NCBI GenBank assembly: GCA_964007475.1
Contig: OZ023273.1
Location: forward strand, 30,491,557-30,555,556
Length of the DNA: 64,000 nucleotides
Source of the DNA: Hybos culiciformis
Lineage: Eukaryota; Arthropoda; Insecta; Diptera; Hybotidae
Direction: 5' to 3'
The notes under the pieces are model-generated. The model did not search any database, had not been told where the DNA came from, and saw nothing but the letters and a program-made list of their open reading frames with translations. This document shows, one piece after another, positions 1-64,000 of the stretch (positions are counted from its first letter, which is position 1; every line of letters starts with the position of its first letter). The translations under genes were made by a program, and so were the position numbers.

Positions 1-358
1 ATAAATATTCTTTAAAAAAATTTATATTCATCAATTATTTCAATAGAAATTTCCTTTGGGTATTTTTCTACCAACCGATTCGCTGAAACTTTTATTTCTT
101 TCTCAGATATAATCTTCAAATAACCAAATAACTTTAATTAAGTTGCAATTTTCATGCAATGATTTAAATTGCCTTGACAATCCAGATATTTCAAAATCAA
201 TAACACAGAATACTAGAACTTTTTTCTGCTATGTGAATAAAAATTAACAGATTTTTTAATAGAAAGCTACAAATTTGCTGATTTTTTATTAAAATGGGGG
301 CCCCAAAAATCGGGGGCTAATGCCATATGGCCCTGCTGACCCCTTCTATCTGGGCCTG
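1..358. other. AT-rich stretch, no gene seen
   Basis: No coding frame of note. A GC-richer segment at about 295-358 (GGGGGCCCC near 296 and CCTGCTGACCCCTTCTATCT near 332) interrupts the decayed array unit that starts at 359 and may be an old insertion end. Confidence 0.5.
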
Positions 359-3687: not shown

Positions 3688-3695
3688 TATAAAAG
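3688..3695 (+). promoter_or_regulatory. TATA box of the mucin-like gene
   Basis: TATAAAAG lies 79 bp upstream of the chosen ATG. Initiator-like TCA sequences follow about 20-24 bp downstream (near 3708-3712), so transcription probably begins around 3708-3720. A very short upstream reading frame (ATG at 3736, four codons, stop at 3748) would fall in the leader if the start site is there. The position is typical of an insect gene with a short leader; the exact start site cannot be fixed from sequence. Confidence 0.6.
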
Positions 3696-3766: not shown

Positions 3767-3926
3767 ATGCAATTTTTTAAATTTATTTTCCTTTTGTTGT
3801 TTACTGTGCAAAATTCATATCAGCAATCTTCAGAATCAACTACTTCAGAACCAACAACAGCAGCATTGACTACAACTGCTGAAACTACAACAACGCCAGC
3901 AGTTACTACAACATTAGCAGAAACAG
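3767..3926 (+). CDS. exon 1: signal peptide and Ser/Thr-rich start of the mucin-like protein
   Basis: The ATG at 3767 has a good insect context (ACAAAATG) and opens MQFFKFIFLLLFTVQNSYQ, a classic signal peptide: one Lys, a hydrophobic core (FIFLLLFTV) and probable cleavage near residues 17-20. The remaining ~34 residues are rich in Ser, Thr, Glu and Ala. The tail contains AETTTTP followed by Ala-Val-Thr-Thr-Thr, very like the end of one repeat exon joined to the start of the next. The exon ends AACAG|GTATCT in phase 1, matching the phase of all downstream exons. An in-frame upstream start at 3731 (not ATG) was rejected because it would bury the signal peptide. Confidence 0.75.
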
Positions 3927-12900: not shown

Positions 12901-15900
12901 TTTCATTAAGTTGGTTTAGATTTATTTGGATTTTGGACCTTTGGATTTTGAACACTTGGATTGTAAACATTTAGCTTTTGAATTATGATTCATTTGGATA
13001 TTCAACATATGGATATTTAAATTTGGATTATGATCTTTGAATTTTATAATTTGTATTATGGATCATTTCGAATTAGGATCATGGACACAATCCAAAAAAC
13101 AATCCTAAAGCTTCAAAATACAAATTAAATTCAAATGTTTTAATCCAAATGTTCTAAAAAGAAATGTTCAAATTCAAAATATTCAATATCAAAATGTTCA
13201 AAATTCAAATTATAAATATACAAATGTTCAAAATCCAAATCATTTGTATGTATATTGAACATTTGAATTTTGAACATTTGCAAATTGGAAATTTTAATGA
13301 ACCAAATATTAACTGACAAAAAGGGTCAAAACGTTTTATTACCTATTAAATTTCACCATAAAATATCGAATAATTTATTTGAAATCTCTTTCTTTCAAAA
13401 TAGTAACAACAACCACACCTGAAACCACGACAACACCAGAAACAACCACAACTGCTGAAACTACTACAACACCAGGTACTTTATATGAAATTTTTGTTCA
13501 AAATTTAGATATTTAGCATATTTTTTGCTTCAATTAAAAGTATCAAGGAAATTAATATTTTCGAGAATAGAAATAATAAAAATTTCTTTTTATTTTATAA
13601 AATTATAATTAAGGACAAATATTGTAATTTACAAGTTCTAAAATTTTAATTTGTTCAATAAACCAATTTTTTTCTATTAACTGAGTTCTTGGCAAGAAAA
13701 TATCAAAAAAGTTTGTTATTACGAAGATATTACCTATTAAATTTCACCTTAAAATATCCAAAAATTTATTTGAAATCTCTTTCTTTCAAAATAGTAACAA
13801 CAACCACATCTGAAACTACTACGACACCAGAAACAACCACAACTGCTGAAACTACTACAACACCAGGTACTTTATATGAAATTTATGTTCAAAATTTAGA
13901 TTTTTAGCATATTGTTTGCTTCAATTAAAAGTATCAAGGAAATTAATATTTTCGAGAATAGAAATAATAAAAATTTCTTTTTATTTTATAAAATTATAAT
14001 TAAGGACCAATATTGTAATTTACAAGTTCTAAAATTTGAATTTGTTCAATACACCAAATTTTTTCTATTAACTGAGTTCTTGGCAAGAAAATATCAAAAT
14101 AAATTGTTATTACGAAGATTTTACCTATTAAATTTCACCATAAAATATCGAATAATTTATTTGAAATCTCTTTCTTTCAAAATAGTAACAACAACCACAC
14201 CTGAAACTACTACGACACCAGAAACAACCACAACTGCTGAAACTACTACAACACCAGGTACTTTATATGAAATTTTTGTTCAAAATTTAGATATTTAGCA
14301 TATTTTTTGCTTCAATTAAAAGTATCAAGGAAATTAATATTTTCGAGTATAGAAATAATAAAAATTCCTTTTTATTTTATAAAATTATAATTAAGGACCA
14401 ATATTGTAATTTACAAGTTCTAAAATTTTAATTTGTTCAATAAACCAAATTTTTTCTATTAACTGAGTTCTTGGCAAGAAAATATAAAAATAAATTGTTA
14501 TTACGAAAAATACCTATTAAATTTCACCATAAAATATCGAAAAATTTATTTGAAATCTCTTTCTTTCAAAATAGTAACAACAACCACACCTGAAACTACT
14601 ACGACACCAGAAACAACCACAACTGCTGAAACTACTACAACACCAGGTACTTTATATGAAATTTTTGTTCAAAATTTAGATATTTAGCATATTTTTTGCT
14701 TCAATTAAAAGTATCAAGGAAATTAATATTTTCGAGTATAGAAATAATAAAAATTCCTTTTTATTTTATAAAATTATAATTAAGGACCAATATTGTAATT
14801 TACAAGTTCTAAAATTTTAATTTGTTCAATAAACCAAATTTTTTCTATTAACTGAGTTCTTGGCAAGAAAATATAAAAATAAATTGTTATTACGAAAAAT
14901 ACCTATTAAATTTCACCATAAAATATCGAATAATTTATTTGAAATCTCTTTCTTTCAAAATAGTAACAACAACCACACCTGAAACTACTACGACACCAGA
15001 AACAACCACAACTGCTGAAACTACTACAACACCAGGTACTTTATATGAAATTTTTGTTCAAAATTTAGATATTTAGCATATTGTTTGCTTCAATTAAAAC
15101 TATCAAGGAAATTAATATTTTCGAGAATAGAAATAATAAAAATTCCTTTTATTTTATAAAATTATAATTAAGGACCAATATTGTAATTTACAAGTTCTAA
15201 AATTTTAATTTGTTCAATAAACCAAATTTTTTCTAGTAACTGAGTTCTTGACAAGAAAATATCAAAATAAATTGTTATTACGAAGATTTTACCTATTAAA
15301 TTTCACCATAAAATATCGAATAATTTATTTAAAATCTCTTTCTTTCAAAAAAGTAACAACAACCACACCTGAAACTACTACGACACCAGAAACAACCACA
15401 ACTGCTGAAACTACTACAACACCAGGTACTTTATATGAAATTTTTGTTCAAAATTTAGATATTTAGCATATTTTTTGCTTCAATTAAAAGTATCAAGGAA
15501 ATTAATATTTTCGAGAATAGAAATAATAAAAATTTCTTTTTATTTTATAAAATTATAATTAAGGACCAATATTGTAATTTACAAGTTCTAAAATTTTAAT
15601 TTGTTCAATAAACCACATTTTTTCTATTAACTGAGTTCTTGGCAAGAAAATATCAAAATAAATTGTTATTACGAAGATTTTACCTATTAAATTTCACCAT
15701 AAATTAGAAAAAACTTTCTTTCAAAATAGTAACAACAACCACACCTGAAACTACGACAACACCAGAAACAACCACAACTGCTGAAACTACTACAACACCG
15801 GGTACTTTATATGAAATTTTTGTTCAAAATTTAGATATTTAGCATATTTTTTGCTTCAATTAAAAGTATGAAGGAAATTAATAATTTCGAGAATAGAAAT

Positions 15901-24900: not shown

Positions 24901-27900
24901 TTACCTATTAAGTTTCACCATAAAATATCGAATAATTTATTGGAAATGTCTTTCTTTCAAAATAGTAACAACAACCACACCTGAAACTACTACGACACCA
25001 GAAACAACCACAACTGCTGAAACTACTACAACACCAGGTACTTTATATGAAATTTTTGTTCAAAATTTAGATATTTAGCTATTTTTTGCTTCAATTAAAA
25101 GTATCAAGGAAATTAATAATTTCGAGAATAGAAATAATAAAAATTCCTTTTTATTTTATAAAATTATAATTAAGGACCAATATTGTAATTTACAAGTTCT
25201 AAAATTTTAATTTGTTCAATAAACCAAATTTTTTCTATTAACTGAGTTCTGGGCAAGAAAATATCAAAATAAATTGTTATTACGAAGATTTTACCTATTA
25301 AATTTCACCATAAAATATCGAAAAATTTATTTGAAATCTCTTTCTTTCAAAATAGTAACAACAACCACACCTGAAACTACGACAACACCAGAAACAACCA
25401 CAACTGCTGAAACTACTACAACACCAGGTACTTTATATGAAATTTTTGTTCAAAATTTAGATATTTAGCATATTTTTTGCTTCAATTAAAAGTATCAAGG
25501 AAATTAATAATTTCGAGAATAGAAATAATAAAAATTCCTTTTTATTTTATAAAATTATAATTTAAGACTAATTTTGTAATTTACCAGTTCTAAAATTTGA
25601 ATTTGTTCAATAAACCAAATTTTTTCAATTAACTCAGTTCTTGGCAAGAAAATATCAAAATAAATTGTTATTACGAAGATTTTACCTATTAAATTTCACC
25701 ATGAAATATCGAATAATTTATTTGAAATCTCTGTCTTTGAAAATAGTAACAACAACCACACCTGAAACTACGACGACACCAGAAACAACCACAACTGCTG
25801 AAACTACTACAACACCAGGTACTTTATATGAAATTTTTTTTCAAAATTTAGATATTTAGCATATTTTTTGCTTCAATTAAAAGTATCAAGGAAATTAATA
25901 TGTTCGAGAATAGAAATAATAAAAATTCTTTTTTATTTTATAAAATTATAATTAAGGACCAATATTGTAATTTACAAGTTCTAAAATTTTAATTTGTTCA
26001 ATAAACCAAATTTTTTCTATTAACTGAGTTCTTGGCAAGAAAATATCAAAATAAATTGTTATTACGAAGATTTTACCTATTAAATTTCAGCATAAAATAT
26101 CGAAAAATTTATTTGAAATCTCTTTCTTTCAAAATAGTAACAACAACCACACCTGAAACTACGACGACACCAGAAACAACCACAACTGCTGAAACTACTA
26201 CAACACCAGGTACTTTATATGAAATTTTTGTTCACAATTAAAGATATATCATCTTTTTGTTTCAATTAAAAGTATCGAGAAAATTATTATTTTCGAGAAT
26301 AGAAATAATAAAAATTCCTTTTCATTTTATAAAATTATATTTTAAGACTAATTTTGTAATTTACAAGTTCTAAAATTTGAATTTGTTCAATAAACCAAAT
26401 TTTTTCAATTAACTCAGTTCTTGGCAAGAAAATATCAAAATAAATTCTTATTACGAAAATTTTACCTATTAAATTTCACCATAAAATATCGAATAATTTA
26501 TTTGAAATCTCTTTCTTTCAAAATAGTAACAACAACCACACCTGAAACTACTACGACACCAGAAACAACCACAACTGCTGAAACTACTACAACACCAGGT
26601 ACTTTATATGAAATTTTTGTTCAAAATTTAGATATTTAGCATATTTTTTACTTCAATTAAAAGTATCAAGGAAATTAATATTTTCGAGAATAGAAATAAT
26701 AAAAATTCCTTTTTATTTTATAAAATTATAATTAAGGACCAATATTGTAATTTACAAGTTGTAAAATTTGAATTTGTTCAATACACCAAATTTCTTTCTA
26801 TTTACTGAGTTCTTGGCAAGAAAATATCAAAAAACGTTGTTATTACGAAGATTTTACCTATTAAATTTCACCATAAAATATCGAAAAATTTATTTGAAAT
26901 CCCTTTCTTTCAAAATAGTAACAACAACCACACCTGAAACTACTACGACACCAGAAACAACCACAACTGCTGAAACTACTACAACACCAGGTACTTTATA
27001 TGAAATTTTTGTTCAAAATTTAGATATTTAGCATATTTTTTGCTTCAATTAAAAGTATCAAGGAAATTAATATTTTCGAGAATAGAAATAATAAAAATTC
27101 CTTTTATTTCATAAAATTATAATTAAGGACCAATATTGTAATTTACAAGATCTAAAATTTTAATTTGTTCAATAAACCAAATTTTTCTATTAACTGAGTT
27201 CTTGGCAAGAAAATATCAAAATAAATTGTTATTACGAAGATTTTACCTATTAAATTTCATCATAAAATATCGAAAAATTTATTTGAAATCTCTTTCTTTC
27301 AAAATAGTAACAACAACCACACCTGAAACTACTACGACACCAGAAACAACCACAACTGCTGAAACTACTACTATTGTAGTAGTACCAGGTACTTTATATG
27401 AAATTTTTGTTCAAAATTTAGATATTTAGCATATTTTTTGCTTCAAATAAAAGTATCAAGGAAATTAATATTTTCGAGAATAGAAATAATAAAAATTCTT
27501 TTTTATTTTATAAAATTATAATTAAGGACCAATATTGTAATTTACAAGTTCTAAAATTTTAATTTGTTCAATAAACCAAATTTTTTCTATTAACTGAGTT
27601 CTTGGCAAGAAAATATCAAAATAAATTGTTATTACGAAGATTTTAGCTATTAAATTTCACCATAAAATATCGAAAAATTTATTTGAAATCTCTTTCTTTC
27701 AAAATAGTAACAACAACCACACCTGAAACTACTACGACACCAGAAACAACCACAACTGCTGAAACTACTACAACACCAGGTACTTTATATGAAATTTTTG
27801 TTCAAAATTTAGATATTTAGCATATTTTTTGCTTCAATTAAAAGTATCAAGAAAATTAATAATTTCGAGAATAGAAATAATAAAAATTCCTTTTTATTTT

Positions 27901-30900
27901 ATAATATTATAATTAAGGACCAATATTGTAATTTACAAGTTCTAAAATTTTAATTTGTTCAATAAACCAAATTTTTTCTATTAACTGAGTTCTGGGCGAG
28001 AAAATATCAAAATACATTGTTATTACGAAAATTTTACCTATTAAGTTTCACCATAAAATATCGAATAATTTATTTGAAATGTCTTTCTTTCAAAATAGTA
28101 ACAACAACCACACCTGAAACTACTACGACACCAGAAACAACCACAACTGCTGAAACTACTACAACACCAGGTACTTTATATGAAATTTTTGTTCAAAATT
28201 TAGATATTTAGCATATTTTTTGCTTCAATTAAAAGTATCAAGGAAATTAATAATTTCGAGAATAGAAATAATAAAAATTCCTTTTTATTTTATAAAATTA
28301 TAATTAAGGACCAATATTGTAATTTACAAGTTCTAAAATTTTAATTTGTTCAATAAACCAAATTTTTTCTATTAACTGAGTTCTGGGCAAGAAAATATCA
28401 AAATAAATTGTTATTACGAAGATTTTACCTATTAAATTTCACCATAAAATATCGAAAAATTTATTTGAAATCTCTTTCTTTCAAAATAGTAACAACAACC
28501 ACACCTGAAACTACGACAACACCAGAAACAACCACAACTGCTGAAACTACTACAACACCAGGTACTTTATATGAAATTTTTGTTCAAAATTTAGATATTT
28601 AGCATATTTTTTGCTTCAATTAAAAGTATCAAGGAAATTAATAATTTCGAGAATAGAAATAATAAAAATTCCTTTTTATTTTATAAAATTATAATTTAAG
28701 ACTAATTTTGTAATTTACCAGTTCTAAAATTTGAATTTGTTCAATAAACCAAATTTTTTCAATTAACTCAGTTCTTGGCAAGAAAATATCAAAATAAATT
28801 GTTATTACGAAGATTTTACCTATTAAATTTCACCATAAAATATCGAATAATTTATTTGAAATCTCTGTCTTTGAAAATAGTAACAACAACCACACCTGAA
28901 ACTACGACGACACCAGAAACAACCACAACTGCTGAAACTACTACAACACCAGGTACTTTATATGAAATTTTTTTTCAAAATTTAGATATTTAGCATATTT
29001 TTTGCTTCAATTAAAAGTATCAAGGAAATTAATATTTTCGAGAATAGAAATAATAAAAATTCTTTTTTATTTTATAAAATTATAATTAAGGACCAATATT
29101 GTAATTTACAATTTCTAAAATTTTAATTTGTTCAATAAACCAAATTTTTTCTATTAACTGAGTTCTTGGCAAGAAAATATCAAAATAAATTGTTATTACG
29201 AAGATTTTACCTATTAAATTTCAGCATAAAATATCGAAAAATTTATTTGAAATCTCTTTCTTTCAAAATAGTAACAACAACCACACCTGAAACTACGACG
29301 ACACCAGAAACAACCACAACTGCTGAAACTACTACAACACCAGGTACTTTATATGAAATTTTTGTTCACAATTAAAGATATATCATCTTTTTGTTTCAAT
29401 TAAAAGTATCGAGAAAATTATTATTTTCGAGAATAGAAATAATAAAATAGTAGATTACAATACATTTTAAGAAAATTTGTTATTCTTGCGAGTTTTGTAT
29501 ACACACAAACACATAGACACGAGTCATGTTTATATCACGAGACCGAAGGTCGAGTGATATAATATTGACGAGTGTCTATATGTTTGTGTGTATACAAAAC
29601 GAGCTGTATAACAAATTTGATTAACATGTATTGTATACTGCTTTAATGTGCATGTGAGAGGGAGTTGAAAACAATACATTTATAATGAAAAAAATAAACA
29701 AAAAAGTTCAAAATGAAGCAAGGAAATAAAATTTAATAAGGAAGTTTATTTATTTATCGAAATGATTTCAAACCGGAAGATTCCTAAAATATTAAAAAAA
29801 AAATTAGTAATTTTTCCAAAAAAAAATTATTCATTTTCTTTTTTGCAAAAAAAAAAATCGAATAATTTTTTTTTAGAAAAATTACTAATTTTTTTTTTAT
29901 TATTTTAGGAAATAATGGTCTTCTTAAATTTTACTTAATTTTATTTTTAATTATTAAAAAAAATAATAATAATTTTATAATTATTTTTTTTATAATTAAA
30001 AATAAAATCAAATAATAATTATATAATTATAATTTATATTTACAATAAATAATCTCCTTGATGCTGCCATTTTCTTTGTTTGTTGATAGAAGAAAAAAAA
30101 ATTCTTACTTGACATTTGACAATCACAGCAAACTTTATAATGACAACAAATATATTTTCAGGGTTACCATTGTTCTATTTTTATTCATTTTGTTTTTTTG
30201 AATAAAAATAAGTCCAATTTTTGAAGTGTGGTTTAAATTTTTGTACTAAAATCCAACCACACTCGTTTAAAAATTTAGTAGTAGAGGTTCGAAGATCCTT
30301 TAAAAATAGTAGATTGAAACACATGTTAAGAAAATTCATCGACTGATCGACTGGCCGCTTTTTAGAAAAAAAAAAAATAGCCGCGTATTTTTTTATTGGT
30401 TCTTTTTTTTTTTTTTGTTTGCTCAGAGGGAAAATATAGATTAGCTCAGAGGGAAAATTTAGATTTTAGCATTATAAACTAAGCTTTGATTGACATTGAT
30501 ATGATGCATGTGAGAGGTATACATTTGCAATTTTTTTTTTTTTTTGGTATTTGTCTGTATTGAAATATTGTGAGTGTGAGTGATATTATTTTTGTTTATA
30601 GTATTACGCAGTTGAAAATGAAGAATGTAAATACAATATAGAGCAATGTAAATACAATTTACATCACAGGGAAATGTAAATACAATTTACATTCCTCTAT
30701 AATTGCATGTGTATTGATGCATGTAATGGACCATTTACCGAGCTAAATTTGCGAATGTAAATACAACTTACCGAAGACATGCGCATTAAATTCCTTTTCA
30801 TTTTATAAAATTATATTTTAAGACTAATTTTGTAATTTACAAGTTCTAAAATTTGAATTTGTTCAATAAACCAAATTTTTTCAATTAACTCAGTTCTTGG

Positions 30901-42900: not shown

Positions 42901-45900
42901 TCTATTAACTGAGTTCTTGGCAAGAAAATATCAAAAAAATTTGTTATTACGAAGATTTTACCTATTAAATTTCACCATAAAATATCGAAAAATTTATTTG
43001 AAATCTCTTTCTTTCAAAATAGTAACAACAACCACACCTGAAACTACTACCACACCAGAAACAACCACAACTGCTGAAACTACTACAACACCAGGTACTT
43101 TATATGCAATTTTTGTTCAAAATTTAGATATTTAGCATATTTTTTGCTTCAATTAAAAGTATCAAGGAAATTAATATTTTCGAGAATAGAAATAATAACA
43201 ATTCCTTTTCATTTTATAAAATTATAATTTAAGACTAATTTTGTAATTTACCAGTTCTAAAATTTGAATTTGTTCAATAAACCAAATTTTTTCAATTAAC
43301 TCAGTTCTTGGCAAGAAAATATCAAAATAAATTGTTATTACGAAGATTTTACCTATTAAATTTCACCATAAAATATCGAATAATTTATTTGAAATCTCTG
43401 TCTTTCAAAATAGTAACAACAACCACACCTGAAACTACGACGACACCAGAAACAACCACAACTGCTGAAACTACTACAACACCAGGTACTTTATATGAAA
43501 TTTTTGTTCAAAATTTAGATATTTAGCATATTTTTTGCTTCAATTAAAAGTATCAAGGAAATTAATATTTTCGAGAATAGAAATAATAAAAATTCTCTTT
43601 AATTTTATAAAATTATAATTAAGGACCAATATGGTAATTTACAAGTTCTAAAATTTTAATTTGTTCAATAAACCAAATTTTTTCTATTAACTGAGTTCTT
43701 GGCAAGAAAATATCAAAATAAATTTTTGTTACGAAGATTTTACCTATTAAATTTCACCATAAAATATCGAAAAATTTATTTGAAATCTCTTTCTTTCAAA
43801 ATAGTAACAACAACCACACCTGAAACTACGACGACACCAGAAACAACCACAACTGCTGAAACTACTACAACACCAGGTACTTTATATGAAATTTTTGTTC
43901 AAAATTTAGATATTTAGCATATTTTTTGCTTCAATTAAAAGTATCAAGGAAATTAATATTTTCGAGAATAGAAATAATAAAAATTCTTTTTTATTTTATA
44001 AAATTATAATTAAGGACCAATATTGTAATTTACAAGTTCTAAAATTTTAATTTCTTCAATGAACCAAATTTTTTCTATTAACTGAGTTCTTGGCAAGAAA
44101 ATATCAAAATAAATTGTTATTACGAAGATATTACCTATTAAATTTCACCATAAAATATCGAAAAATTTATTTGAAATCTCTGTCTTTCAAAATAGTAACA
44201 ACAACCACACCTGAAACTACGACGACACCAGAAACAACCACAACTGCTGAAACTACTACAACACCAGGTACTTTATATGAAATTTTTGTTCAAAATTTAG
44301 ATATTTAGCATATTCTTTGCTTCAATTAAAAGTATCAAGGAAATTAATATTTTCGAGAATAGAAATAATAAAAATTCCTTTTTATTTTATAAAATTATAA
44401 TTAACGACCAATATTGTAATTTACAAGTTCTAAAATTTTAATTTGTTCAATAAACCAAATTTTTTCTATTAACTGAGTTCTTGGCAAGAAAATATCAAAA
44501 TAAATTGTTATTACGAAGATTTTACCTATTAAATTTCACCATAAAATATCGAATAATTTATTTGAAATCTCTTTCTACTACTACGACACCAGAAACAACC
44601 GCAACTGCTGAAACTACTACAACACCAGGTACTTTATATGAAATTTTTGTTCAAAATTTAGATATTTAGCATATTTTTTGCTTCAATTAAAAGTATCAAG
44701 GAAATTAATATTTTCGAGAATAGAAATAATAAAAATTCCTTTTTATTTTATAAAATTATAATTAAGTACCAATATTGTAATTTACAAGTTCTAAAATTTT
44801 AATTTGTTCAATAAACAAATTTTTTCTATTAACTGAGTTCTTGGCAAGAAAATATCAAAAAAATTTGTTATTACTAAGATTAAACCTATTAAATTTTACC
44901 ATAAAATATGGGAAAATTTATTTGAAATCTCTTTCTTTCAAAATAGTAACAACAACCACACCTGAAACTACTACGACACCAGAAACAACCACAACTGCTG
45001 AAACTACTACAACACCAGGTACTTTATATGAAATTTTTGTTCAAAATTTAGATATTTAGCATATTTTTTGCTGCAATTAAAAGTATCAAGGAAATTAATA
45101 TTTTCGAGAATAGACATAATAAAAATTCCTTTTTATTTTATAAAATTATAATTAAGGACCAATATTGTAATTTACAAGTTCTAAAATTTTAATTTGTTCA
45201 ATAAACCAAATTTTTTCTATTAACTGAGTTCTTGGCAAGAAAATATCAAAAAAATTTGTTATTACGAAGATTTTACCTATTAAATTTCACCATAAAATAT
45301 CGAAAAATTTATTTGAAATCTCTTTCTTTCAAAATAGTAACAACAACCACACCTGAAACTACGACGACACCAGAAACAACCACAACTGCTGAAACTACTA
45401 CAACACCAGGTACTTTATATGAAATTTTTGTTCAAAATTTAGATATTTAGCATATTTTTTGCTGCAATTAAAAGTATCAAGGAAATTAATATTTTCGAGA
45501 ATAGACATAATAAAAATTCCTTTTTATTTTATAAAATTATAATTAAGGACCAATATTGTAATTTACAAGTTCTAAAATTTTAATTTGTTCAATAAACCAA
45601 ATTTTTTCTATTAACTGAGTTCTTGGCAAGAAAATATCAAAAAAATTTGTTATTACGAAGATTTTACCTATTAAATTTCACCATAAAATATCGAAAAATT
45701 TATTTGAAATCTCTTTCTTTCAAAATAGTAACAACAACCACACCTGAAACTACTACCACACCAGAAACAACCACAACTGCTGAAACTACTACAACACCAG
45801 GTACTTTATATGCAATTTTTGTTCAAAATTTAGATATTTAGCATATTTTTTGCTTCAATTAAAAGTATCAAGGAAATTAATATTTTCGAGAATAGAAATA

Positions 45901-48900
45901 ATAACAATTCCTTTTCATTTTATAAAATTATAATTTAAGACTAATTTTGTAATTTACCAGTTCTAAAATTTGAATTTGTTCAATAAACCAAATTTTTTCA
46001 ATTAACTCAGTTCTTGGCAAGAAAATATCAAAATAAATTGTTATTACGAAGATTTTACCTATTAAATTTCACCATAAAATATCGAATAATTTATTTGAAA
46101 TCTCTGTCTTTCAAAATAGTAACAACAACCACACCTGAAACTACGACGACACCAGAAACAACCACAACTGCTGAAACTACTACAACACCAGGTACTTTAT
46201 ATGAAATTTTTGTTCAAAATTTAGATATTTAGCATATTCTTTGCTTCAATTAAAAGTATCAAGGAAATTAATATTTTCGAGAATAGAAATAATAAAAATT
46301 CCTTTTTATTTTATAAAATTATAATTAACGACCAATATTGTAATTTACAAGTTCTAAAATTTTAATTTGTTCAATAAACCAAATTTTTTCTATTAACTGA
46401 GTTCTTGGCAAGAAAATATCAAAATAAATTGTTATTACGAAGATTTTACCTATTAAATTTCACCATAAAATATCGAATAATTTATTTGAAATCTCTTTCT
46501 ACTACTACGACACCAGAAACAACCGCAACTGCTGAAACTACTACAACACCAGGTACTTTATATGAAATTTTTGTTCAAAATTTAGATATTTAGCATATTT
46601 TTTGCTTCAATTAAAAGTATCAAGGAAATTAATATTTTCGAGAATAGAAATAATAAAAATTCCTTTTTATTTTATAAAATTATAATTAAGTACCAATATT
46701 GTAATTTACAAGTTCTAAAATTTTAATTTGTTCAATAAACAAATTTTTTCTATTAACTGAGTTCTTGGCAAGAAAATATCAAAAAAATTTGTTATTACTA
46801 AGATTAAACCTATTAAATTTTACCATAAAATATGGGAAAATTTATTTGAAATCTCTTTCTTTCAAAATAGTAACAACAACCACACCTGAAACTACTACGA
46901 CACCAGAAACAACCACAACTGCTGAAACTACTACAACACCAGGTACTTTATATGACATTTTTGTTCGAAATTTAGATATTTAGCATATTTTTTGCTTCAA
47001 TTAAAAGTATCAAGGAAATTAATATTTTCGAGAATAGAAATAATAAAAATTCCTTTTATTTTATAAAATTATAATTAAGGACCAATTTTGTAATTTACAA
47101 GTTCTAAAATTTTAATTTGTTCAATAAAACAAATTTTTTCTATTAACTGAGTTCTTGGCAAGAAAATATCAAAATAAATTGTTATTACGAAGATTTTACC
47201 TATTAAATTTCACCATAAAATATCGAATAATTTATTTGAAATCTCTTTCTACTACTACGACACTAGAAACAACCACAACTGCTGAAACTACTACAACACC
47301 AGGTACTTTATATGAAATTTTTGTTCAAAATTTAGATATTTAGTATATTTTTTGCTTCAATTAAAAGTATCAAGGAAATTAATATTTTCGAGAATAGAAA
47401 TAATAAAAATTCCTTTTTATTTTATAAAATTATAATTAAGGACCAATATTGTAATTTACAAGTTCTAAAATTTTAATTTGTTCAATTAACAAATTTTTTC
47501 TATTAACTGAGTTCTTGGCAAGAAAATATCAAAAAAATTTGTTATTACTAAGATTAAACCTATTAAATTTCACCATAAAATATGGGAAAATTTATTTGAA
47601 ATCTCTTTCTTTCAAAATAGTAACAACAACCACACCTGAAACTACTACGACACCAGAAACAACCACAACTGCTGAAACTACTACAACACCAGGTACTTTA
47701 TATGACATTTTTGTTCGAAATTGAGATATTTAGCATATTTTTTGCTTCAATTAAAAGTATCAAGGAAATTAATATTTTCGAGAATAGAAATAATAAAAAT
47801 TCCTTTTATTTTATAAAATTATAATTAAGGACCAATATTGTAATTTACAAGTTCTAAAATTTTAATTTGTTAAATAAACCAAATTTTTGAAGTTTATACT
47901 TCTTTAGCGGCGTTTGATGATTTTTGGTAGAGGGTAAAAGTCCATTTTCATATAGAATTTTTCTCAGAATCGTCATCATTTTTCTCAGAAAAATTAGAAT
48001 AAGAATGCTTATTTTTTTATTATATTTAAGAAACCCAAAATCATATGGACAATATGGCTTAGTGGCTAGAACATCAGACTGTAAGTCTGAAGGTGCCTGG
48101 TTCGATTCCCAATGACAAGATTTTTTAATTTCAAATATATGTATATATAGGGCCCAATATTACAAGCAAAAAAAGCTACGGTTAGGTCGTGCCGGAGCAA
48201 AATATACGAATTTTTTTTTTCTTTTTAAATAGGTAGCTCCGGTGAAATTAATATTATCTGAAAAAAATTTTTTGGGTGGGGAGCTACGGTTAGGTCGTGC
48301 CAAAGCAAAATTTACGAAAATTTTTTTTTTTAAATAGGTAGCTCCGGTGAAATTAATATTAACTGAAAACATTTTTTTTGGTGGGGAGCTACGGTTAGGT
48401 GGTGCAGGAGCAAAATATACGAAAATTTTTTTTTTTTTTCAAAATAGGTAGCTCCGGTGAAATTAATATTACCTGAAAAAAAATTTTTGGGGGGGGAGCT
48501 ACGGTTAGGTCGTGTCGGAGCAAAATATACGAAAATTTTTTTGTTTTCAAAATAGGTAGCTCTGGTGAAATTAATATTACCTGAAAAAATATTTTGGGTG
48601 GGGAGCTACGGTTAGGTCGTGCCGGAGCAAAATATACGAAAATTTATTTTTTTTTTTTCAAAATAGGTAGCTCCGGTGAAATTAATATTATCTGAAAAAA
48701 AAATTTTGGGTGGGGAGCTACGGTTAGGTCGTGCCGGAGCAAAATATACGAAAAATTTTTTTTTTCAAAATAGGTAGCTCCGGTGAAATTAATATTACTT
48801 AAAAAAAAATGTTTGGGTGGGGAGCTACGGTTAGGTCGTGCCGGAGCAAAATATACGAAATTTTTTTGTTTTTCAAAATAGGTAGTTCCGGTGAAATTAA

Positions 48901-51900
48901 TATTACCTGAAAAAAAAATTTTTGGGGATCTACGGTTAGGTCGTGCCGGAGCAAAATATACGAAAAAATTTTTTTTTTTCAAAATAGGTAGCTCCGGTGA
49001 AATTAATATTACCTGAAAAAAAAATTTTGGGTGGGGAGCTACGGTTAGGTCGTGCCGGAGCAAAATATACGAAATTTTTTTTTTTTTTTTAAATAGGTAG
49101 CTCCGTTGAAATTAATATTAACTGAAAAAAATTTTTTTGGTGGGGAGCTACGGTTAGGTCGTGCAGGAGCAAAATATACGAAAAATTTATTTTTTTTTTC
49201 AAAATAGGTAGCTCCGGTGAAATTAATATTACTTGAAAAAAAAATTTTGGGTGGGGAGCTACGGTTAGGTCGTGCCGGAGCAAAATATACGAAAAAAATT
49301 TTTTTTACTTAAAAAAAAATTTTTGGGGGGGGAGCTACGGTTAGGTCGTGCCGGAGCAAAATATACGAACATTTTTTTTTTTTTTTAAATAGGGAGCTCC
49401 GGTGAAATTAATATTAACTGAAAAAAATTTTGGGTGGGGAGCTACGGTTAGGTCGTGCCGGAGCAAAATACACGAAATTTTTTTTGAAGTTTATACTTCT
49501 TTAGCCGCGTTGTGCGTTTTTTTGATAGAGGGTAAAATATTTTAATTTACATTTTGTACTCAGCAGCCTATCATTTATAGCCACTGTTATTTCATATTTT
49601 AAATCTTTAAGTATAAACTTCTGTAGGCAGTTCTATGACTGGTTCGTGTGTTTTTTTATTAACTGAGTTCTTGGCAAGAAAATATCAAAAAAATTTGTTA
49701 TTACGAAGATTTTACCTATTAAATTTCACCATAAAATATCGAAAAATTTATTTGAAATCTCTTTCTTTCAAAATAGTAACAACAACCACACCTGAAACTA
49801 CTACGACACCAGAAACAACCACAACTGCTGAAACTACTACAACACCAGGTACTTTATATGAAATTTTTGTTCAAAATTTAGATATTTAGCATATTTTTTG
49901 CTTCAATTAAAAGTATGAAGGAAATTAATATTTTCGAGAATAGAAATAATAAAAATTCCTTTTTATTTTATAAAATTATAATTAAGAACCAATATTGTAA
50001 TTTACAAGTTCTAAAATTTTAATTTGTTCAATAAACCAAATTTTTTCTATTAACTGAGTTCTTGGCAAGAAAATATCAAAATAAATTGTTATTAAGAAGA
50101 TTTTACCTATTAAATTTCACCATAAAATATCGAAAAATTTATTTGAAATCTCTTTCTTTCAAAATAGTAACAACAACCACACCTGAAACTACGACGACAC
50201 CAGAAACAACCACAACTGCTGAAACTACTACAACACCAGGTACTTTATATGAAATTTTTGTTCAAAATTTAGATATTTAGCATATTTTTTGCTTCAATTA
50301 AAAGTATCAAGGAAATTAATATTTTCGAGAATAGAAATAATAAAAATTCCTTTTTATTTTATAAAATTATAATTTAAGATTAATATTATATTGTATTTAG
50401 CAGTTCTAAAATTTGAATTTGTTCAATAAACCAAATTTTTTCAATTAACTCAGTTCTTGGCAACGAAAATATCAAAATAAATTGTTATTACGAAGATTTT
50501 ACCTATTAAATTTCACCATAAAATATGGAATAATTTATTTGAAATCTCTTTCTTTCAAAATAGTAACAACAACCACACCTGAAACTACTACGACACCAGA
50601 AACAACCACAACTGCTGAAACTACTACAACACCAGGTACTTTATATGAAATTTTTGTTCAAAATTTAGATATTTAGCATATTTTTGCTGCAATTAAAAGT
50701 ATAAAGGAAATTAATATTTTCGAGAATAGAAATAATAAAAATTCCTTTTTATTTTATAAAATTATAATTAAGGACCAATATAGTAATTTACAAGTTCTAA
50801 AATTTTAATTTGTTCAATAAACCAAATTTTTTCTATTAACTGAGTTCCTGGTAAGAAAATATCAAAATAAATTCTTATTACGAAGATTTTACCTATTAAA
50901 TTTCACCATAAAATACCGAAAAATTTATTTGAAATCTCTTTCTTTCAAAATAGTAACAACAACCACACCTGAAACTACTACGACACCAGAAACAACCACA
51001 ACTGCTGAAACTACTACAACACCAGGTACTTTATATGAAATTTTTGTTCAAAATTTAGATATTTAGCATATTTTTTGCTGCAATTAAAAGTATCAAGGAA
51101 ATTAATATTTTCGAGAATAGAAATAATAAAAATTCCTTTTTATTTTATAAAATTATAATTAAGGACCAATATTGTAATTTACAAGTTCTAAAATTTTAAT
51201 TTGTTCAATAAACCAAATTTTTTCTATTAACTGAGTTCTTGGCAAGAAAATATCAAAAAAATTTGTTATTACGAAGATTTTACCTATTAAATTTCACCAT
51301 AAAATATCGAATAATTTATTTGAAATCTCTTTTTTTCAAAATAGTAACAACAACCACACCTGAAACTACTACGACACCAGAAACAACCACAACTGCTGAA
51401 ACTACTACAACACCAGGTACTTTATATGAAATTTTTGTTCAAAATTTAGATATTTCGCATATTTTTTGCTTCAATTAAAAGTATCAAGGAAATTAATATT
51501 TTCGAGAATAGAAATAATAAAAATTCCTTTTTATTTTATTAAATTATAATTCAGGACCAATATTGTAATTTACAAGTTCTAAAATTTTATTTTGTTCAAT
51601 AAACAAATTTTTTCTATTAACTGAGTTCTTGGCAAGAAAATATCAAAAAAATTTGTTATTACGAAGATTTTACCTATTAAATTTCACCATAAAATATCGA
51701 AAAATTTATTTGAAATATCTTTCTTTCAAAATAGTAACAACAACCACGCCTGAAACTACTACGACAGCAGAAACAACCACAACTGCTGAAACTACTACAA
51801 CACCAGGTACTTTATATGAAATTTTTGTTCGAAATTTAGATATTTAGCATATTTTTTGCTTCAATTAAAAGTATCAAGGAAATTAATATTTTCGAGAATA

Positions 51901-63900: not shown

Positions 63901-64000
63901 CAGGTACTTTATATGAAATTTTTGTTCAAAATTTAGATATTTAGCATATTTTTTGCTTCAATTAAAAGTATCAAGGAAATTAATATTTTCGAGAATAGAA
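3767..64000 (+). CDS. giant secreted Thr-rich mucin-like protein, multi-exon, 3'-incomplete
   Basis: This is the overall gene model: exon 1 (3767-3926) plus 123 repeat exons between 13404 and 63903, interrupted by introns. Exon 1 ends one base into a codon (CAG|GT). Each repeat exon starts with the last two bases of a codon after AAAATAG and again ends one base into a codon, so all junctions read G|TA (Val) and stay in frame. The joined exons give about 2,970 codons with no stop. After the signal peptide the product is nearly all Thr, Pro and Glu, the composition of a heavily O-glycosylated mucin (peritrophic matrix, salivary or cuticular roles are possible in insects). No chitin-binding or other folded domain is visible, and no terminal exon lies in the window. 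Retention of nearly any intron would end translation within about 13 codons. The exon model is inferred from splice signals and phase only. Confidence 0.72.
4667..4883. mobile_element. foldback element with ~90-bp inverted arms
   Basis: The left arm (4667-4764, beginning CATAGATTAAGAATACAGAA) is the imperfect complement of the right arm (4794-4883, ending TTCTGTATTCTTAATCTATG), with a ~30-bp loop. A related segment starting CTAATAAATTACC occurs on both sides (near 4569 and 4948), suggesting the full element spans about 4560-5050. A 20-bp piece (GAAATACAACAACCACAATT) is duplicated in tandem at about 4581-4623. No transposase is encoded. Confidence 0.6.
5051..6201. other. AT-rich intronic DNA, nothing recognised
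   Basis: Only short random frames on either strand. The one notable local feature is a GC-rich palindromic stretch near 6158-6208 (GCCGACTGGCAGTCGG and CGGGCATACCGG) just before the dispersed repeat at 6202. Confidence 0.4.
6202..6316. repeat. dispersed repeat, copy 1 (paired with 9600-9716)
   Basis: About 115 bp from GGGCCGACAG to AAATTAAGCAATTA that recurs in the same orientation at 9600-9716 with scattered substitutions and small indels. Both begin with GGGCCGA followed by a T-run and share TAGAATTCAAAGTAATAT and AATTCTCTAAATTAAGCAAT. The LINE fragment and the hAT-type element lie between them. Confidence 0.7.
6468..8112 (-). mobile_element. 5'-truncated non-LTR retrotransposon (LINE)
   Basis: A LINE fragment read on the minus strand. 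Its 5' limit is near 8064-8112, where a 24-bp segment (ACAAGATGCATAATCCATGT and onward) is present twice in tandem. Its 3' limit is a T-run at about 6468-6479, which is a poly(A) tail on the coding strand. It retains the reverse-transcriptase and C-terminal domains but no endonuclease or ORF1, typical of incomplete reverse transcription. No clear target duplication was found. The chemistry of the RT motifs suggests a jockey-like insect LINE, but the clade is uncertain. Confidence 0.8.
6560..8248 (-). CDS. LINE reverse transcriptase, N-terminally truncated
   Basis: An uninterrupted 562-codon frame. Retrotransposon homology begins near residue 70; the earlier residues are flanking sequence read in frame. 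Visible RT motifs: NYRPIALTSILSKVMESLI (110-128), QYGFRTNRST (146-155), VVALDIAKAFDRVW (178-191, catalytic Asp 182), GVSQRCVLSP (238-247) and SFADD (267-271, catalytic Asp pair). The usual GVPQG-type motif reads GVSQR, so the conserved Gly is changed and activity is doubtful. The C-terminal part has LGSKITSDLSWKIHI and a YIRPKLKYNSHIWAGA segment usual for insect LINEs. No endonuclease domain is present. The open frame suggests a fairly recent insertion. Confidence 0.85.
   Translation of the reverse strand: MWVTSNFLTRISSQYHTNSKNIRFKLNVNAFNSPIRNFNITFLSILTHGLCILYNTWIMHLVLKHTASVLAKPLRNLFYLSYSLGIYPTKWKVVHVQPIAKKGDKCDPSNYRPIALTSILSKVMESLINNKVKKYLECNKLLNDQQYGFRTNRSTGDLMTYLSHKLNASLHNSGEACVVALDIAKAFDRVWHSVLISKVKSMGLGSAFVNWISNFLSGRSIRAVVDGYQSHIFNINSGVSQRCVLSPTLFLIFINDLLQSTLNHIHSFADDSNLVACYDFINRNSTSSNAVTTKRNFLQSSINHDLSKISQWGLLNRVEFIASKTQSCLISRKLSTFEPQLSFQGESIAKSGNLDILGSKITSDLSWKIHIFETTKNAAKCLGFLKRCKQYFPPSDLLNIYKSYIRPKLKYNSHIWAGAPKTHLEYLDKVQRRAIRLINDHQATSSLTSLNHRRNVGSLSIFYKYLVGTDTCSLEVKALVPQLQVFSRQTRTASTSHPYFVKIPKCDRTSFGDSFSIRTSRMWNALPSKLFPTAGGRLIYDLRRFKKSVNDYLLTVPLFNPV
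8250..9315. mobile_element. non-autonomous hAT-type element with perfect 8-bp target duplication
   Basis: The ends are CAGGGCTGTGG (8250) and CCACAGCCCTG (9315), followed inward by runs of GGAGTC/GACTCC repeats (8260-8352 and 9222-9290). CCCACAAC flanks both sides exactly (8242-8249 and 9316-9323). The end sequence and 8-bp duplication fit the hAT superfamily. No transposase frame is present. A second, internal inverted repeat occupies 8584-9199. Confidence 0.88.
8584..9199. repeat. long internal inverted repeat of the hAT-type element
   Basis: Left arm 8584-8735 and right arm about 9055-9199 are complementary. Examples are AGTCCAAGAGCTCGCAACGT against ACGTTGCGAGCTCTTAGACT, GCTACGGTGCAGGA against its mirror near 9117, and TTACCCGTGGGAGCAGA against its mirror near 9065. 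The loop holds two related GGTCTGGCA...CGTCTGGCAA segments in direct orientation (8785 and 8931). This may be a nested foldback element or the element's own subterminal repeats. Confidence 0.65.
9511..9802. repeat. direct repeat pair flanking dispersed repeat copy 2
   Basis: The ~87-bp segment at 9511-9597 (ACATATTTAAATTATTGG through AAAACCGAGTA) recurs at 9716-9802. Between them lies copy 2 of the dispersed repeat (9600-9716). The arrangement looks like a composite insertion flanked by direct repeats. Confidence 0.6.
9803..11730. other. AT-rich intronic DNA, nothing recognised
   Basis: No persuasive gene. Short frames are fragmentary and lysine- or phenylalanine-rich, as expected from AT-rich DNA. 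Long A and T runs occur near 9900, 10120, 11100 and 11490. A small GC-richer patch near 9980-10050 (TACCCGGGCCGAATTTTGG) has no identifiable origin. Confidence 0.4.
11734..12272. mobile_element. PIF/Harbinger-like MITE, TTA target duplication
   Basis: The left end AGGCCGGTATTCAACTGAAG is mirrored by the right end (CAGTTGAATACCGACCT, ending 12272) with few mismatches. TTA flanks both ends (11731-11733 and 12273-12275). Three-bp TTA duplications and GG-rich ends fit PIF/Harbinger MITEs. Internally there are repeated AGATAAATTTTATCT-type segments in both orientations. It is non-coding. Confidence 0.75.
12390..13255. repeat. two inverted TTTGGATT-rich modules
   Basis: Runs built on TTTGGATTTTGA / TTTGGATTATGATC (12390-12600 and 12915-13075) are each followed by their complementary form, AATCCAAATGTTCAAAA-like (12640-12790 and 13110-13255). 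The middle segment AATTAGGATCA occurs at the same relative place in both (12605 and 13071), so the whole module appears duplicated with an offset of about 467 bp. It lies just before the exon array. It is non-coding. Confidence 0.6.
13404..16972 (+). CDS. mucin repeat exons 1-10
   Basis: Each is 72 bp and starts at 13404, 13795, 14186, 14575, 14964, 15354, 15730, 16119, 16510 and 16901. Each encodes four blocks of four Thr separated by Pro-Glu, Pro-Glu and Ala-Glu, opened by a junction Val and closed by Pro. The first exon has a distinct synonymous pattern (GAAACCACGACAACA). Exon 2 changes the first Pro to Ser (ACATCTGAA) and exon 10 the second (ACATCAGAA). Exon 6 uses an AAAAAAG acceptor instead of AAAATAG, still ending in AG. 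The intron before exon 7 has lost part of the ATCGAATAATTTATTTGAAATC stretch. All donors keep GTACTT. Confidence 0.8.
17291..21261 (+). CDS. mucin repeat exons 11-21
   Basis: 72-bp exons starting at 17291, 17682, 18073, 18464, 18855, 19245, 19635, 20026, 20417, 20800 and 21190. All encode the standard 24-residue unit except exon 21, where ACG-GCA gives Thr-Ala in place of Thr-Thr before the second Pro. Exon 20 has a one-base deletion in its donor region (GGTACTTATATG), which leaves the GT intact. Exon 21 is followed by an intron lacking about 125 bp. The diverged intron subtype (TTTAAGACTAATTTTGTAAT) follows exons 13, 17 and 19. Confidence 0.8.
21456..24646 (+). CDS. mucin repeat exons 22-30
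   Basis: 72-bp exons starting at 21456, 21847, 22238, 22629, 23020, 23410, 23801, 24192 and 24575. Exons 22-24 are nearly identical neighbours sharing ATTTAACC and TTTATTTCAAATC in their introns, a sign of recent local duplication. All encode the standard unit. The variable Thr codons in the second Thr block read ACT-ACG-ACG, ACT-ACG-ACA or ACT-ACT-ACG, all synonymous. Exon 29 is followed by the third intron subtype (GTTCACAATTAAAGATATAT). Confidence 0.8.
24966..29343 (+). CDS. mucin repeat exons 31-42, including an 8-unit duplication
   Basis: Exons start at 24966, 25356, 25747, 26138, 26527, 26919, 27308 (81 bp, listed separately), 27708, 28099, 28490, 28881 and 29272. Exons 31-34 recur as 39-42 at an offset of 3,133-3,134 bp with shared private variants (AGTTTCACC before 31 and 39; GAAATTTTTTTTC after 33 and 41; TTTCAGCAT before 34 and 42). 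This is a tandem duplication of eight units. Apart from exon 37 the coding units are standard. Confidence 0.8.
27308..27388 (+). CDS. variant repeat exon 37, 81 bp, with Ile-Val-Val-Val
   Basis: This exon is 9 bp longer than the rest and still in frame. Its end reads ACTACTACTATTGTAGTAGT before ACCAG|GTACTT, so the last Thr block becomes Thr-Thr-Thr-Ile-Val-Val-Val-Pro. The inserted stretch is a near-perfect palindrome (ACTACTA/TAGTAGT), consistent with a template-switch copy of the neighbouring ACTACTAC. Both splice sites are intact. It is the only unit with a hydrophobic run. Confidence 0.75.
29448..30789. mobile_element. 1,342-bp insertion interrupting the array, empty site known
   Basis: It sits in the intron after exon 42. 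Equivalent units at 26138 and 34475 read straight through (AATAATAAAAATTCCTTTTC), which sets the inserted length at 1,342 bp with a 2-bp overlap (AA). The first 190 bp form a long palindrome. ATAGTAGATT with a following AAGAAAATT occurs near 29447 and again near 30306. AATGTAAATACAA recurs at 30624, 30645, 30673 and 30754. No coding frame or transposase is visible and the family is unknown. Confidence 0.75.
29456..29635. repeat. 180-bp palindrome (foldback) in the insertion
   Basis: The left arm with TTTTGTATACACACAAACAC pairs with GTTTGTGTGTATACAAAAC in the right arm. The centre is near 29546 (GACCGAAGGTC) and the outer ends are TACAATACAT and ATGTATTGTA. Arms are about 85 bp with few mismatches. 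Confidence 0.8.
31003..34934 (+). CDS. mucin repeat exons 43-53
   Basis: 72-bp exons starting at 31003, 31394, 31783, 32174, 32564, 32954, 33304, 33695, 34086, 34475 and 34863. Variants: exon 43 has Ile for the second Thr (ACAATAACC). Exons 43, 46 and 53 end ACAACAACAG, changing the final Pro to Thr. Exons 44 and 51 have Gln for the second Glu (CCACAAACA). All acceptors are AAAATAG and all donors GTACTT. The introns after exons 48 and 49 have lost the usual early stop (TTATCA for TTAGCA). Confidence 0.8.
35254..38796 (+). CDS. mucin repeat exons 54-63
   Basis: 72-bp exons starting at 35254, 35643, 36034, 36420, 36810, 37160, 37551, 37942, 38333 and 38725. Exons 54-60 are the second copy of exons 44-50 with the same private changes: Gln in 54, final Thr in 56, the CTAAGATTAAACC intron before 58, the shortened unit before 59, and ATTACACC before 60. 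Exon 60 differs from exon 50 by a final Thr, so change followed duplication. The others encode the standard unit. Confidence 0.8.
39116..43094 (+). CDS. mucin repeat exons 64-74
   Basis: 72-bp exons starting at 39116, 39507, 39897, 40287, 40677, 41068, 41459, 41850, 42241, 42632 and 43023. Most carry ACT-ACT-ACC in the variable Thr site and TTTATATGCAATTTTT after the donor, marking a homogenised local subfamily. The introns after exons 67 and 70 lost the first in-frame stop (TTATCA). All encode the standard 24 residues. Confidence 0.8.
43414..47692 (+). CDS. mucin repeat exons 75-86, with three shortened copies
   Basis: Exons start at 43414, 43805, 44196, 44593 (36 bp), 44947, 45338, 45729, 46120, 46517 (36 bp), 46871, 47267 (36 bp) and 47621. 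The short ones are listed separately. Exons 79, 84 and 86 follow the CTAAGATTAAACC / ATATGGGAAAATTT intron type, always just after a short copy, so the short-long pair was duplicated as a block twice. Exons 84 and 86 share TATGACATTTTTG after the donor. The remaining exons are standard. Confidence 0.78.
44593..44628 (+). CDS. shortened repeat exon 78 using an internal acceptor
   Basis: A deletion joins AAATCTCTTTCT directly to ACTACTACGACACCAG, removing the normal acceptor and the first half of the exon. The next AG is CGACACCAG|AAACAACC. An exon starting there is 36 bp, begins in phase 1 (G|AA gives Glu) and ends at the usual donor. It would add 12 residues including Thr-Thr-Ala-Thr (ACCGCAACT). 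Skipping it would also keep the frame. Which happens cannot be told from sequence. Confidence 0.5.
46517..46552 (+). CDS. shortened repeat exon 83, duplicate of exon 78
   Basis: Same deletion, same CACCAG internal acceptor and same ACCGCAACT variant as exon 78, at a constant offset of 1,924 bp, so this is a block duplicate. The preceding GTTATTACGAAGATTTTACC intron is also shared. Use depends on the internal acceptor. Confidence 0.5.
47267..47302 (+). CDS. shortened repeat exon 85 with CTAG acceptor
   Basis: This carries the same deletion, but the internal acceptor reads GACACTAG|AAACAACC: CCAG changed to CTAG. As coding sequence upstream of the acceptor this would be Pro to Leu, but in the spliced model it is intronic. 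It keeps Thr at the position that is Ala in exons 78 and 83. It is 36 bp and in phase 1. Confidence 0.5.
48048..48118 (+). pseudogene. tRNA-like relic (SINE head or tRNA pseudogene), GTA anticodon position
   Basis: The box A-like TGGCTTAGTGG and a perfect box B GGTTCGATTCC are correctly spaced. The anticodon stem TCAGA/TCTGA pairs fully around a 7-base loop with GTA, which would read Tyr codons. The T stem (CCTGG against CCCAA) and the acceptor stem do not pair, and no tRNA-Tyr-type intron is present. It is better read as a decayed tRNA or the head of a tRNA-derived SINE inside the inserted element. Confidence 0.5.
48160..49480. repeat. minisatellite, 13 copies of a ~108-bp unit
   Basis: AGCTACGGTTAGGTCGTGCC (with variants) recurs at 48174, 48282, 48387, 48497, 48604, 48716, 48823, 48928, 49037, 49146, 49257, 49333 and 49440. 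Spacing is 105-112 bp except one 76-bp unit (49257 to 49333). Each unit continues GGAGCAAAATATACGAAA, a variable T-run, AATAGGTAGCTCCGGTGAAA, TTAATATTACCTGAAAA and an A/T run. Units vary mostly in homopolymer length. The minus-strand frames here (up to 139 codons) are by-products of the periodicity. Confidence 0.95.
49777..53362 (+). CDS. mucin repeat exons 87-96
   Basis: 72-bp exons starting at 49777, 50168, 50564, 50954, 51345, 51735, 52123, 52511, 52899 and 53291. Exon 92 changes the second Pro to Ala (ACAGCAGAA). The introns after exons 93 and 94 share the AGAATATAAATAATAA variant. After exon 91 the usual intron stop TAG is TCG, so read-through would extend further. The others encode the standard unit. 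Confidence 0.8.
53682..58065 (+). CDS. mucin repeat exons 97-108
   Basis: 72-bp exons starting at 53682, 54072, 54463, 54855, 55246, 55638, 56030, 56421, 56812, 57203, 57594 and 57994. Exons 100, 102 and 103 have a CTTTCTAAATAG acceptor region and TATATAAAATTTTTG after the donor, a distinct subfamily. Exons 104-107 share GAAATGTTTGTTC after the donor. Exon 108 follows an intron with a 17-bp-scale TTATTTTATATATATT insertion and reads ACAACAACACCT, a synonymous change. All are in frame and standard. Confidence 0.8.
58382..63903 (+). CDS. mucin repeat exons 109-123 (array continues beyond the window)
   Basis: 72-bp exons starting at 58382, 58774, 59164, 59555, 59941, 60331, 60719, 61111, 61501, 61885, 62273, 62661, 63050, 63441 and 63832. 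Exon 113 is the most changed standard-length copy: the fourth Thr is Glu (ACCGAACCT) and it ends CCCAAG|GTACTT, giving Gln in place of the last Pro; its intron also lost the first stop (TTAAGC). The rest encode the standard unit. No different exon, stop or polyadenylation context appears before the window ends inside the next intron. Confidence 0.8.

Follow-up and report, generated by a model that had tools for sequence, protein, structure and literature searches.

The 64,000-nt stretch analysed here (the window; positions 30,491,557-30,555,556 of a 152-Mb contig, of which the next 200 kb were also read) very probably carries the first (5') quarter of a single giant gene for a secreted mucin, with about 599 exons, which we consider the best explanation of the sequence as a whole. 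In the model, 590 array exons and seven variant exons lie between exon 1 and a terminal exon; these 599 exons span about 257 kb (83% intron), and their joined CDS of 44,526 nt (44.5 kb) contains one stop, at its end. The predicted protein would comprise 14,841 aa (64.8% Thr, 12% Glu, 12% Pro; about 1.53 MDa before glycosylation), the array exons alone making up 95% of the model. We infer from the sequence that exon 1, array, variant and terminal exons form one transcript, the exon-exon junction implied by the model being CCAG joined to TAACAACAACC. The initial annotation had already proposed a single secreted mucin, about two-thirds Thr, with one repeat per exon, a proposal that now appears strongly supported by selection, exon borders, in-frame lengths, the phases at both ends and the terminal exon; its count of more than 120 exons was right as far as it went but an underestimate, the array holding about 590.

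The exon array in the window

Copies of the repeat exon were sought over the 64,000-nt window with nhmmer, using the exon and its flanks as query. All 126 matches lie on the + strand, 123 of them inside the array and three elsewhere (358-402, 616-737 and one within exon 1). A copy was called complete when it retained an AG before and a GT after the exon, which applies to 120 of the 123 array copies, 119 of 72 bp and one of 81 bp. All 120 also have an open frame and phase 1-1, neither of which was part of the definition. These results bear out two earlier claims, namely that the exon-like segments number 123 and that 119 have a length of 72 bp (of the other four, one is the 81-bp exon and three lack an acceptor), and that all exons are in phase 1-1 and match the signal-peptide exon, as exon 1 ends in phase 1. 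The claim that every segment has the same borders is correct for the donor GTACTT (+1 to +6), invariant in 120 of 120 complete exons, but "each" is slightly too strong for the acceptor, since exactly CAAAATAG precedes 113 of the 120.

For the alignment of window units, 113 units between complete neighbours with lengths of 330-410 were admitted, while units that adjoin a broken copy or an insertion, and a single 266-bp unit, were omitted. A unit of about 391 bp had been claimed, and 58 of the 113 have exactly this length (range 350-400). Two introns contain insertions (Table 1). The one at 47888-49650 carries a direct repeat of about 100 bp at both ends (79% alike), and its stretch near 48.1 kb, which seems tRNA-like by its motifs, had no match with ARAGORN or Rfam; the Rfam scan of the window as a whole also gave no match.

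Table 1. Features of the locus and their positions (window coordinates unless indicated otherwise)
Feature	Position	Strand	Remarks
Decayed array units upstream of exon 1	358..843	+	more such units in adjoining piece L032
Likely TATA box of exon 1, TATAAAAG	3688..3695	+	79 bp before ATG; presumed promoter
Exon 1, coding part, 160 nt	3767..3926	+	ATG, hydrophobic leader MQFFKFIFLLLFTVQNSYQ, then Thr-rich; phase-1 end GAAACAG/GTATCT
Intron 1, 9.5 kb	3927..13403	+
Reverse-transcriptase ORF inside intron 1	6560-8308	-	RVT_1, E 6.8e-30
Exon array, 123 copies (120 complete, phase 1-1), introns of ~319 bp	13404..63903	+	nhmmer, border check, unit alignment
81-bp exon, 9-bp in-frame insertion	27308..27388	+	sole exon indel among 113 aligned window units
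Unrelated AT-rich insert within one intron	29448..30787		edges approximate
Broken exon copy 78	44577..44628	+	acceptor and first 20 exon bases deleted
Broken exon copy 83	46501..46552	+	acceptor and first 20 exon bases deleted
Broken exon copy 85	47251..47302	+	acceptor and first 20 exon bases deleted
Insertion inside one intron, presumed tRNA-like stretch and ~107-bp tandem repeats	47888..49650		edges approximate
Seven variant exons, 54, 108, 72, 108, 216, 60 and 72 bp	253,156-256,749 (extended)		picked from overlapping candidates
Terminal exon, 1,250 coding nt	258,995-260,244 (extended; L028:4995-6244)		entered in phase 1
Neighbour gene, isocitrate dehydrogenase [NAD] subunit	L028:8819-9697	-	best match beta subunit

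The array beyond the window

The 342-Mb assembly (509 contigs) was searched with a 19-base word across acceptor and exon, the reversed word serving as control. The word occurs 570 times exactly in forward and 0 times in reverse orientation in the whole genome, where the reversed control likewise had 0 matches, and all 570 occurrences fall inside the 264 kb formed by the window and the next 200 kb, which contain no N. An exact 25-base exon pattern had no match in viral contigs. In extended window coordinates, the array comprises 602 copies from 13,404 to 248,719 (235 kb), and its 3' end, which the initial annotation had proposed to map in flanking sequence, has thereby been located. The lengths of the 590 complete copies are all multiples of 3 (584 exons of 72 bp, three of 54 bp and one each of 81, 69 and 66 bp) and none has a stop; 544 of the 584 72-bp exons encode the identical 24-residue peptide VTTTTPETTTTPETTTTAETTTTP. 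Over the whole array, 29 of 590 donors deviate from GTACTT, 18 of these being GTCTTT.

The remaining 12 of 602 copies are broken, the acceptor or donor half being gone, and several of them have one break in common and were thus amplified once broken. Six exon copies at 138507-147590 (extended; L016-L017) show a common deletion of the donor half across 9 kb, apparently one break amplified with the array. What is left of the exon carries an amino-acid change (scored by eye) in 9 of the 12 broken copies compared to 40 of the 584 intact 72-bp exons, which, as these copies are clonal, is no more than suggestive of relaxed constraint in the twelve.

Over up to 3000 sampled pairs, unit identity averages 0.927 (92.7%) and is 0.767 at the lowest, and 438 of 589 units are distinct. 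As 27 consecutive units recur exactly at lag 30, a block that may be an assembly fault, and as only these 438 differ, the copy number depends on the assembly and is uncertain by tens or more. The gene could accordingly be real but shorter or longer than modelled, its copy number having been inflated or scrambled during assembly. We judge this improbable, since 56 of the first 60 units are unique within the array, the 264 kb are free of N and even one count per distinct unit still leaves 438.

Selection on the repeat exon

Whether the repeat exon is translated was assessed from its variants, the expected variant types per base change being estimated from the introns and then applied to the exon. 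In the whole-array test (564 aligned units; units of odd length or beside broken copies or insertions omitted), silent types are nearly as numerous as expected (26 vs 30.1), whereas replacement types are far too few (26 vs 91.7; Poisson 5e-16) and stops are missing (0 vs 2.4). The window gives a similar result, with 14 silent types vs 16.2 expected (119 exons; expectation from 113 units) and 10 replacement types vs 55.9 expected for replacement and stop together (Poisson 5e-14). Diversity at the three codon positions of the whole array is 0.0041, 0.0022 and 0.0441 as compared to 0.0697 in introns, and third positions in the window vary like introns (0.0458 vs 0.0462). The coding frame is also exceptional against intronic controls: among 502 intronic positions (window strand), the lowest ratio is 0.56 vs 0.24 in the coding frame, which 0 of 502 reach, and among 251 intronic windows from the whole array it is 0.71 vs 0.32, reached by 0 of 251. 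The exon's paucity of indels or variants is not due to chance either, being matched by 0 of 248 windows of 72 bp that lie wholly within introns.

Indels follow the same pattern, a single one (+9) falling in the exons of the 113 window units as compared to 93 occurrences in their introns, where 5 of 30 distinct indels are multiples of 3. Each of the 578 introns that separate complete neighbours contains an in-frame stop, reached after 13 codons in 97 of the 116 window introns, so that splicing is required for translation across the array. A minus-strand frame that shares the wobble positions reaches a similarly low ratio (0.28 vs 0.24), but coding on this strand was rejected because the exon borders there offer neither AG nor GT; the coding strand is hence fixed by the splice borders and exon 1 and not by the variant bias.

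Taken as sequence evidence, this variation fits translation, and purifying selection in the coding frame appears strongly supported. Homogenisation alone makes exons alike, however, and variant types are not fully independent. Furthermore, third positions over the whole array vary less than introns (0.0441 vs 0.0697), which counts against the model, and the replacement/silent bias is weak in the window array's middle third (3 and 3). By thirds, this array has 7, 3 and 6 silent and 3, 3 and 4 replacement types (small counts), the neutral expectation being about 3.4 replacement types per silent type.

A satellite without coding role was rejected on the codon-position and indel tests. A milder version, according to which the array is mostly dead satellite DNA derived from one or a few real exons, with splicing confined to the first or last copies or absent altogether, draws on the facts that tandem arrays expand without selection and that 12 of 602 copies are broken, some of these breaks having been amplified. 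It is nevertheless highly improbable in our view, given that variation agrees approximately with the intron-based prediction at silent but not at amino-acid sites, that complete exons are invariably multiples of 3 in length, that replacement types stay below the neutral expectation in the thirds of the window array, and that a unit upstream, outside the gene model, has decayed.

The 5' end

Among 39 ATG ORFs of at least 45 aa on both strands, four have a hydrophobic leader, and exon 1 has the highest S+T share of these four; its leader is hydrophobic by hydropathy alone. The 9.5-kb length of intron 1 and the donor GTACTT, which lacks the +5 G of the usual donor consensus, count against the model, as do the 29 deviating donors and the 12 broken copies. 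The reverse transcriptase inside intron 1 is, by impression, of the non-LTR type.

A second copy of exon 1 is located 9.9 kb upstream, at window position -6101 (L032:3899). The copies show five differences in 53 codons, four silent and one replacement in the last codon, so that 52 of 53 residues are alike; the upstream copy has three extra codons before its donor. An aligned 491-bp stretch including exon 1 is 85.5% alike between the copies, and the upstream one keeps the TATAAAA core with its surroundings as well as a phase-1 donor. A + strand ORF scan from window position -40,000 to 4,000 revealed no Lys/Arg-rich terminal exon between the two copies. Its sole match, a 76-codon stretch, lies before the upstream exon 1 and thus cannot end that exon's gene. 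With a second exon 1 upstream and no such terminal exon in between, transcription may start at either copy, which also weighs against the model.

The upstream copy might serve this transcript unit as an alternative first exon or promoter, which we consider somewhat less likely than not. The near-identity of the encoded residues with mostly silent differences, in surroundings that are just 85.5% alike, speaks for this reading, as do the retained TATA-like site and phase-1 donor and the position of the only Lys/Arg-rich stretch 5' of the copy; decayed units between both first exons speak against it, and gene conversion could equally maintain the likeness of two exon 1 copies. Among the outside units, the one at 641-717 has an exon copy of 77 nt with two in-frame stops and no GT donor. 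Not every such unit is plainly broken, as a 75-bp copy between the exon 1 copies (L032:9199-9273) is open, in phase 1-1 and followed by a GT donor. A run of 18 C (within L032:9169-9273) is found shortly 5' of this copy.

The 3' end and the neighbouring gene

The array's 3' edge is diverged, and past it a gap of 4.4 kb is followed by exons of the same type and phase. A 42-bp candidate exon (255366-255407) was excluded from the model as doubtful. Intron-loss fossils among the longer 3' exons were considered and dropped, as their internal CCAGTAACAACC is more readily explained by a single-base change in the internal 36-nt repeat. The terminal exon would encode about 56 Thr-rich residues followed by about 360 Lys/Arg-rich residues and a stop, the tail containing 184 K+R and 9 D+E among 363 residues, and an AATAAA is found 65 bases past the stop. 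Its frame is open over 416 codons, as are 0 of 1000 dinucleotide shuffles, which contain 27.9 stops on average; the two alternative frames have 42 and 41 stops. Pfam (E 0.001) returned 0 families in the terminal exon and 0 in exon 1 plus four repeats. Beyond lies a gene for an isocitrate dehydrogenase [NAD] subunit, so that the locus presumably sits on an ordinary eukaryotic nuclear chromosome.

A possible mechanism and the order of splicing

In the mechanism we propose, exon 1 would provide a signal-peptide-like leader, the approximately 590 tandem exons would mostly encode the 24-residue repeat, and seven divergent exons would lead to a terminal exon with a basic tail. The pre-mRNA would be spliced exon by exon, probably during transcription, with each GC-richer exon (43% vs 19% for the intron, consensus) being defined as one unit whose acceptor is joined to the closest donor upstream. 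Pairing across 72-bp exons separated by 319-bp introns may permit this recognition, and co-transcriptional joining of nearest neighbours could keep the order without any code. Owing to the symmetry of every exon (phase 1-1), the frame survives skipping, loss or duplication, and broken copies, which would simply be skipped, can presumably persist and spread since omission of any number of exons leaves the frame intact. The array itself may grow and be homogenised by unequal crossing-over, mostly inside introns; such exchange is suggested by the recurrence of the 27-unit block at lag 30 and by the diverged 3' edge. The product would be a bottlebrush of about 1.5 MDa, rich in Thr, Pro and Glu, that carries O-glycans and has a basic anchor end, conceivably for use in secreted slime, glue, silk or gut lining. 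Automatic annotation might well mistake such a gene for a satellite.

The same gene might also be spliced without strict order, any donor joining any later acceptor. The spliceosome would then draw a run of exons per transcript from about 590 interchangeable ones, which would result in a wide spread of mucin lengths, with the copy number setting the maximum only. Complete exons are indeed all symmetric with near-identical borders, the consensus intron lacks a special ordering fold (z -0.14), and for the mucin SmPoMuc of Schistosoma mansoni the available part of the report describes transcripts with 1-100 repeats from genes with at most about 20 repeat exons (PMC2576457). We still regard this loose mode as rather unlikely, because nearest-neighbour co-transcriptional splicing would give order without a special code and because the first and last thirds of the window array have few replacement as compared to silent types (3 vs 7 and 4 vs 6; middle 3 vs 3), as if many exons were used. 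If exons were nonetheless joined in no fixed order, exon circles, should any form, would represent endless open frames. An intron fold that orders splicing was rejected, as 100 shuffled sequences fold just as well as the consensus intron; a single intron was inspected for inverted repeats, which proved short and AT-rich.

Provided the model is true, this locus would be a severe test of in-order RNA splicing by cells and a natural experiment on splicing order, in which skipping, exon repetition and out-of-order joining are countable in one transcript type because silent variants mark groups of exons.

Comparison with known repeat-exon genes

The initial annotation had contrasted the repeat-per-exon architecture with insect mucins and glue proteins, in which such repeats usually lie within a single exon. 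The architecture has precedents, SmPoMuc on the one hand and the MaSp2 and flagelliform silk genes of Argiope on the other. The spider MaSp2 and flagelliform genes have far fewer exons than the present model. Davis et al. (1988) reportedly found Schistosoma genes in which tandemly repeated exons encode 81-base repeats, the likeness, compared by title only as cited in PMC10526429, being that of tandem exons with one protein repeat each. The principle is known, and new to us are the scale, with 590 near-equivalent exons, and the basic-tailed mucin. The design suggested here, in which intron-separated, phase-symmetric repeats let the gene of a repetitive protein expand and shed damage with its frame intact, parallels that of flatworm mucins and spider silks.

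According to the accessible part of its description, SmPoMuc is a 15-exon gene with small 3' exons and an intronic hammerhead ribozyme, in which a 27-bp exon 2 lies in repeats of about 1 kb with at most about 20 copies; the genomic repeats are more than 93% alike and show concerted evolution, with exon differences kept by selection (PMC2576457). The present gene model shares with it the mucin character, a short exon of its own for each protein repeat within a homogenised genomic repeat (the exon status here being deduced from sequence), concerted evolution and selection on exon differences. They differ, as far as that description goes, in that the present gene model has 72-bp exons in repeats of about 391 bp, 590 complete copies and one basic terminal exon, and in that seven variant exons and a single terminal exon of 1,250 coding nt take the place of the small 3' exons in a 15-exon plan. 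For an intronic hammerhead as in SmPoMuc, the Rfam scan of the 64,000-nt window gave no match. In Argiope MaSp2 and flagelliform silk, the portion of the paper at hand describes repetitive exon-intron pairs with homogenised introns (97.6% mean; PMC9779670). Iterated introns homogenised together with exons and an exon-bounded repeat are shared with the present array (92.7% mean unit identity), but the composition is that of silk there and of a mucin here. By Pfam the product is not a spidroin, as 0 families, and hence none of the conserved N- and C-terminal spidroin domains, were found in exon 1 plus four repeats and in the terminal exon.

Among the matches listed from open-licence papers (titles and abstract beginnings), we saw neither an insect mucin whose repeats each occupy an exon of their own nor a gene whose exon number exceeds 363. 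The latter number belongs to human titin (283 kb), termed in the excerpt available as the gene with the largest exon number (PMC12198301). Titin resembles the present gene as a giant with many exons and differs in that 590 of the 599 exons modelled here are copies of one exon; if the model is true, the exon number exceeds that of titin, with about 590 exons having nearly the same borders.

The accessible text on Drosophila mucins describes proteins of 300-23,000 aa that consist to a large part of PTS tandem repeats, several of them without other domain (PMC2515642), and such repeats over much of the length are also the likeness to the protein predicted here, the comparison being at the protein level only, since that paper nowhere uses the word exon. 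The criteria of Syed et al., as given there, comprise Ser+Thr above 25% with at least four 10-residue repeats, and proline-bearing PTS repeats over more than one third of the length (PMC2515642). With 65% Thr and 590 repeats, nearly all of 24 aa, and with array exons that constitute 95% of the model at 12% Pro, the predicted protein is a mucin by these published fly criteria.
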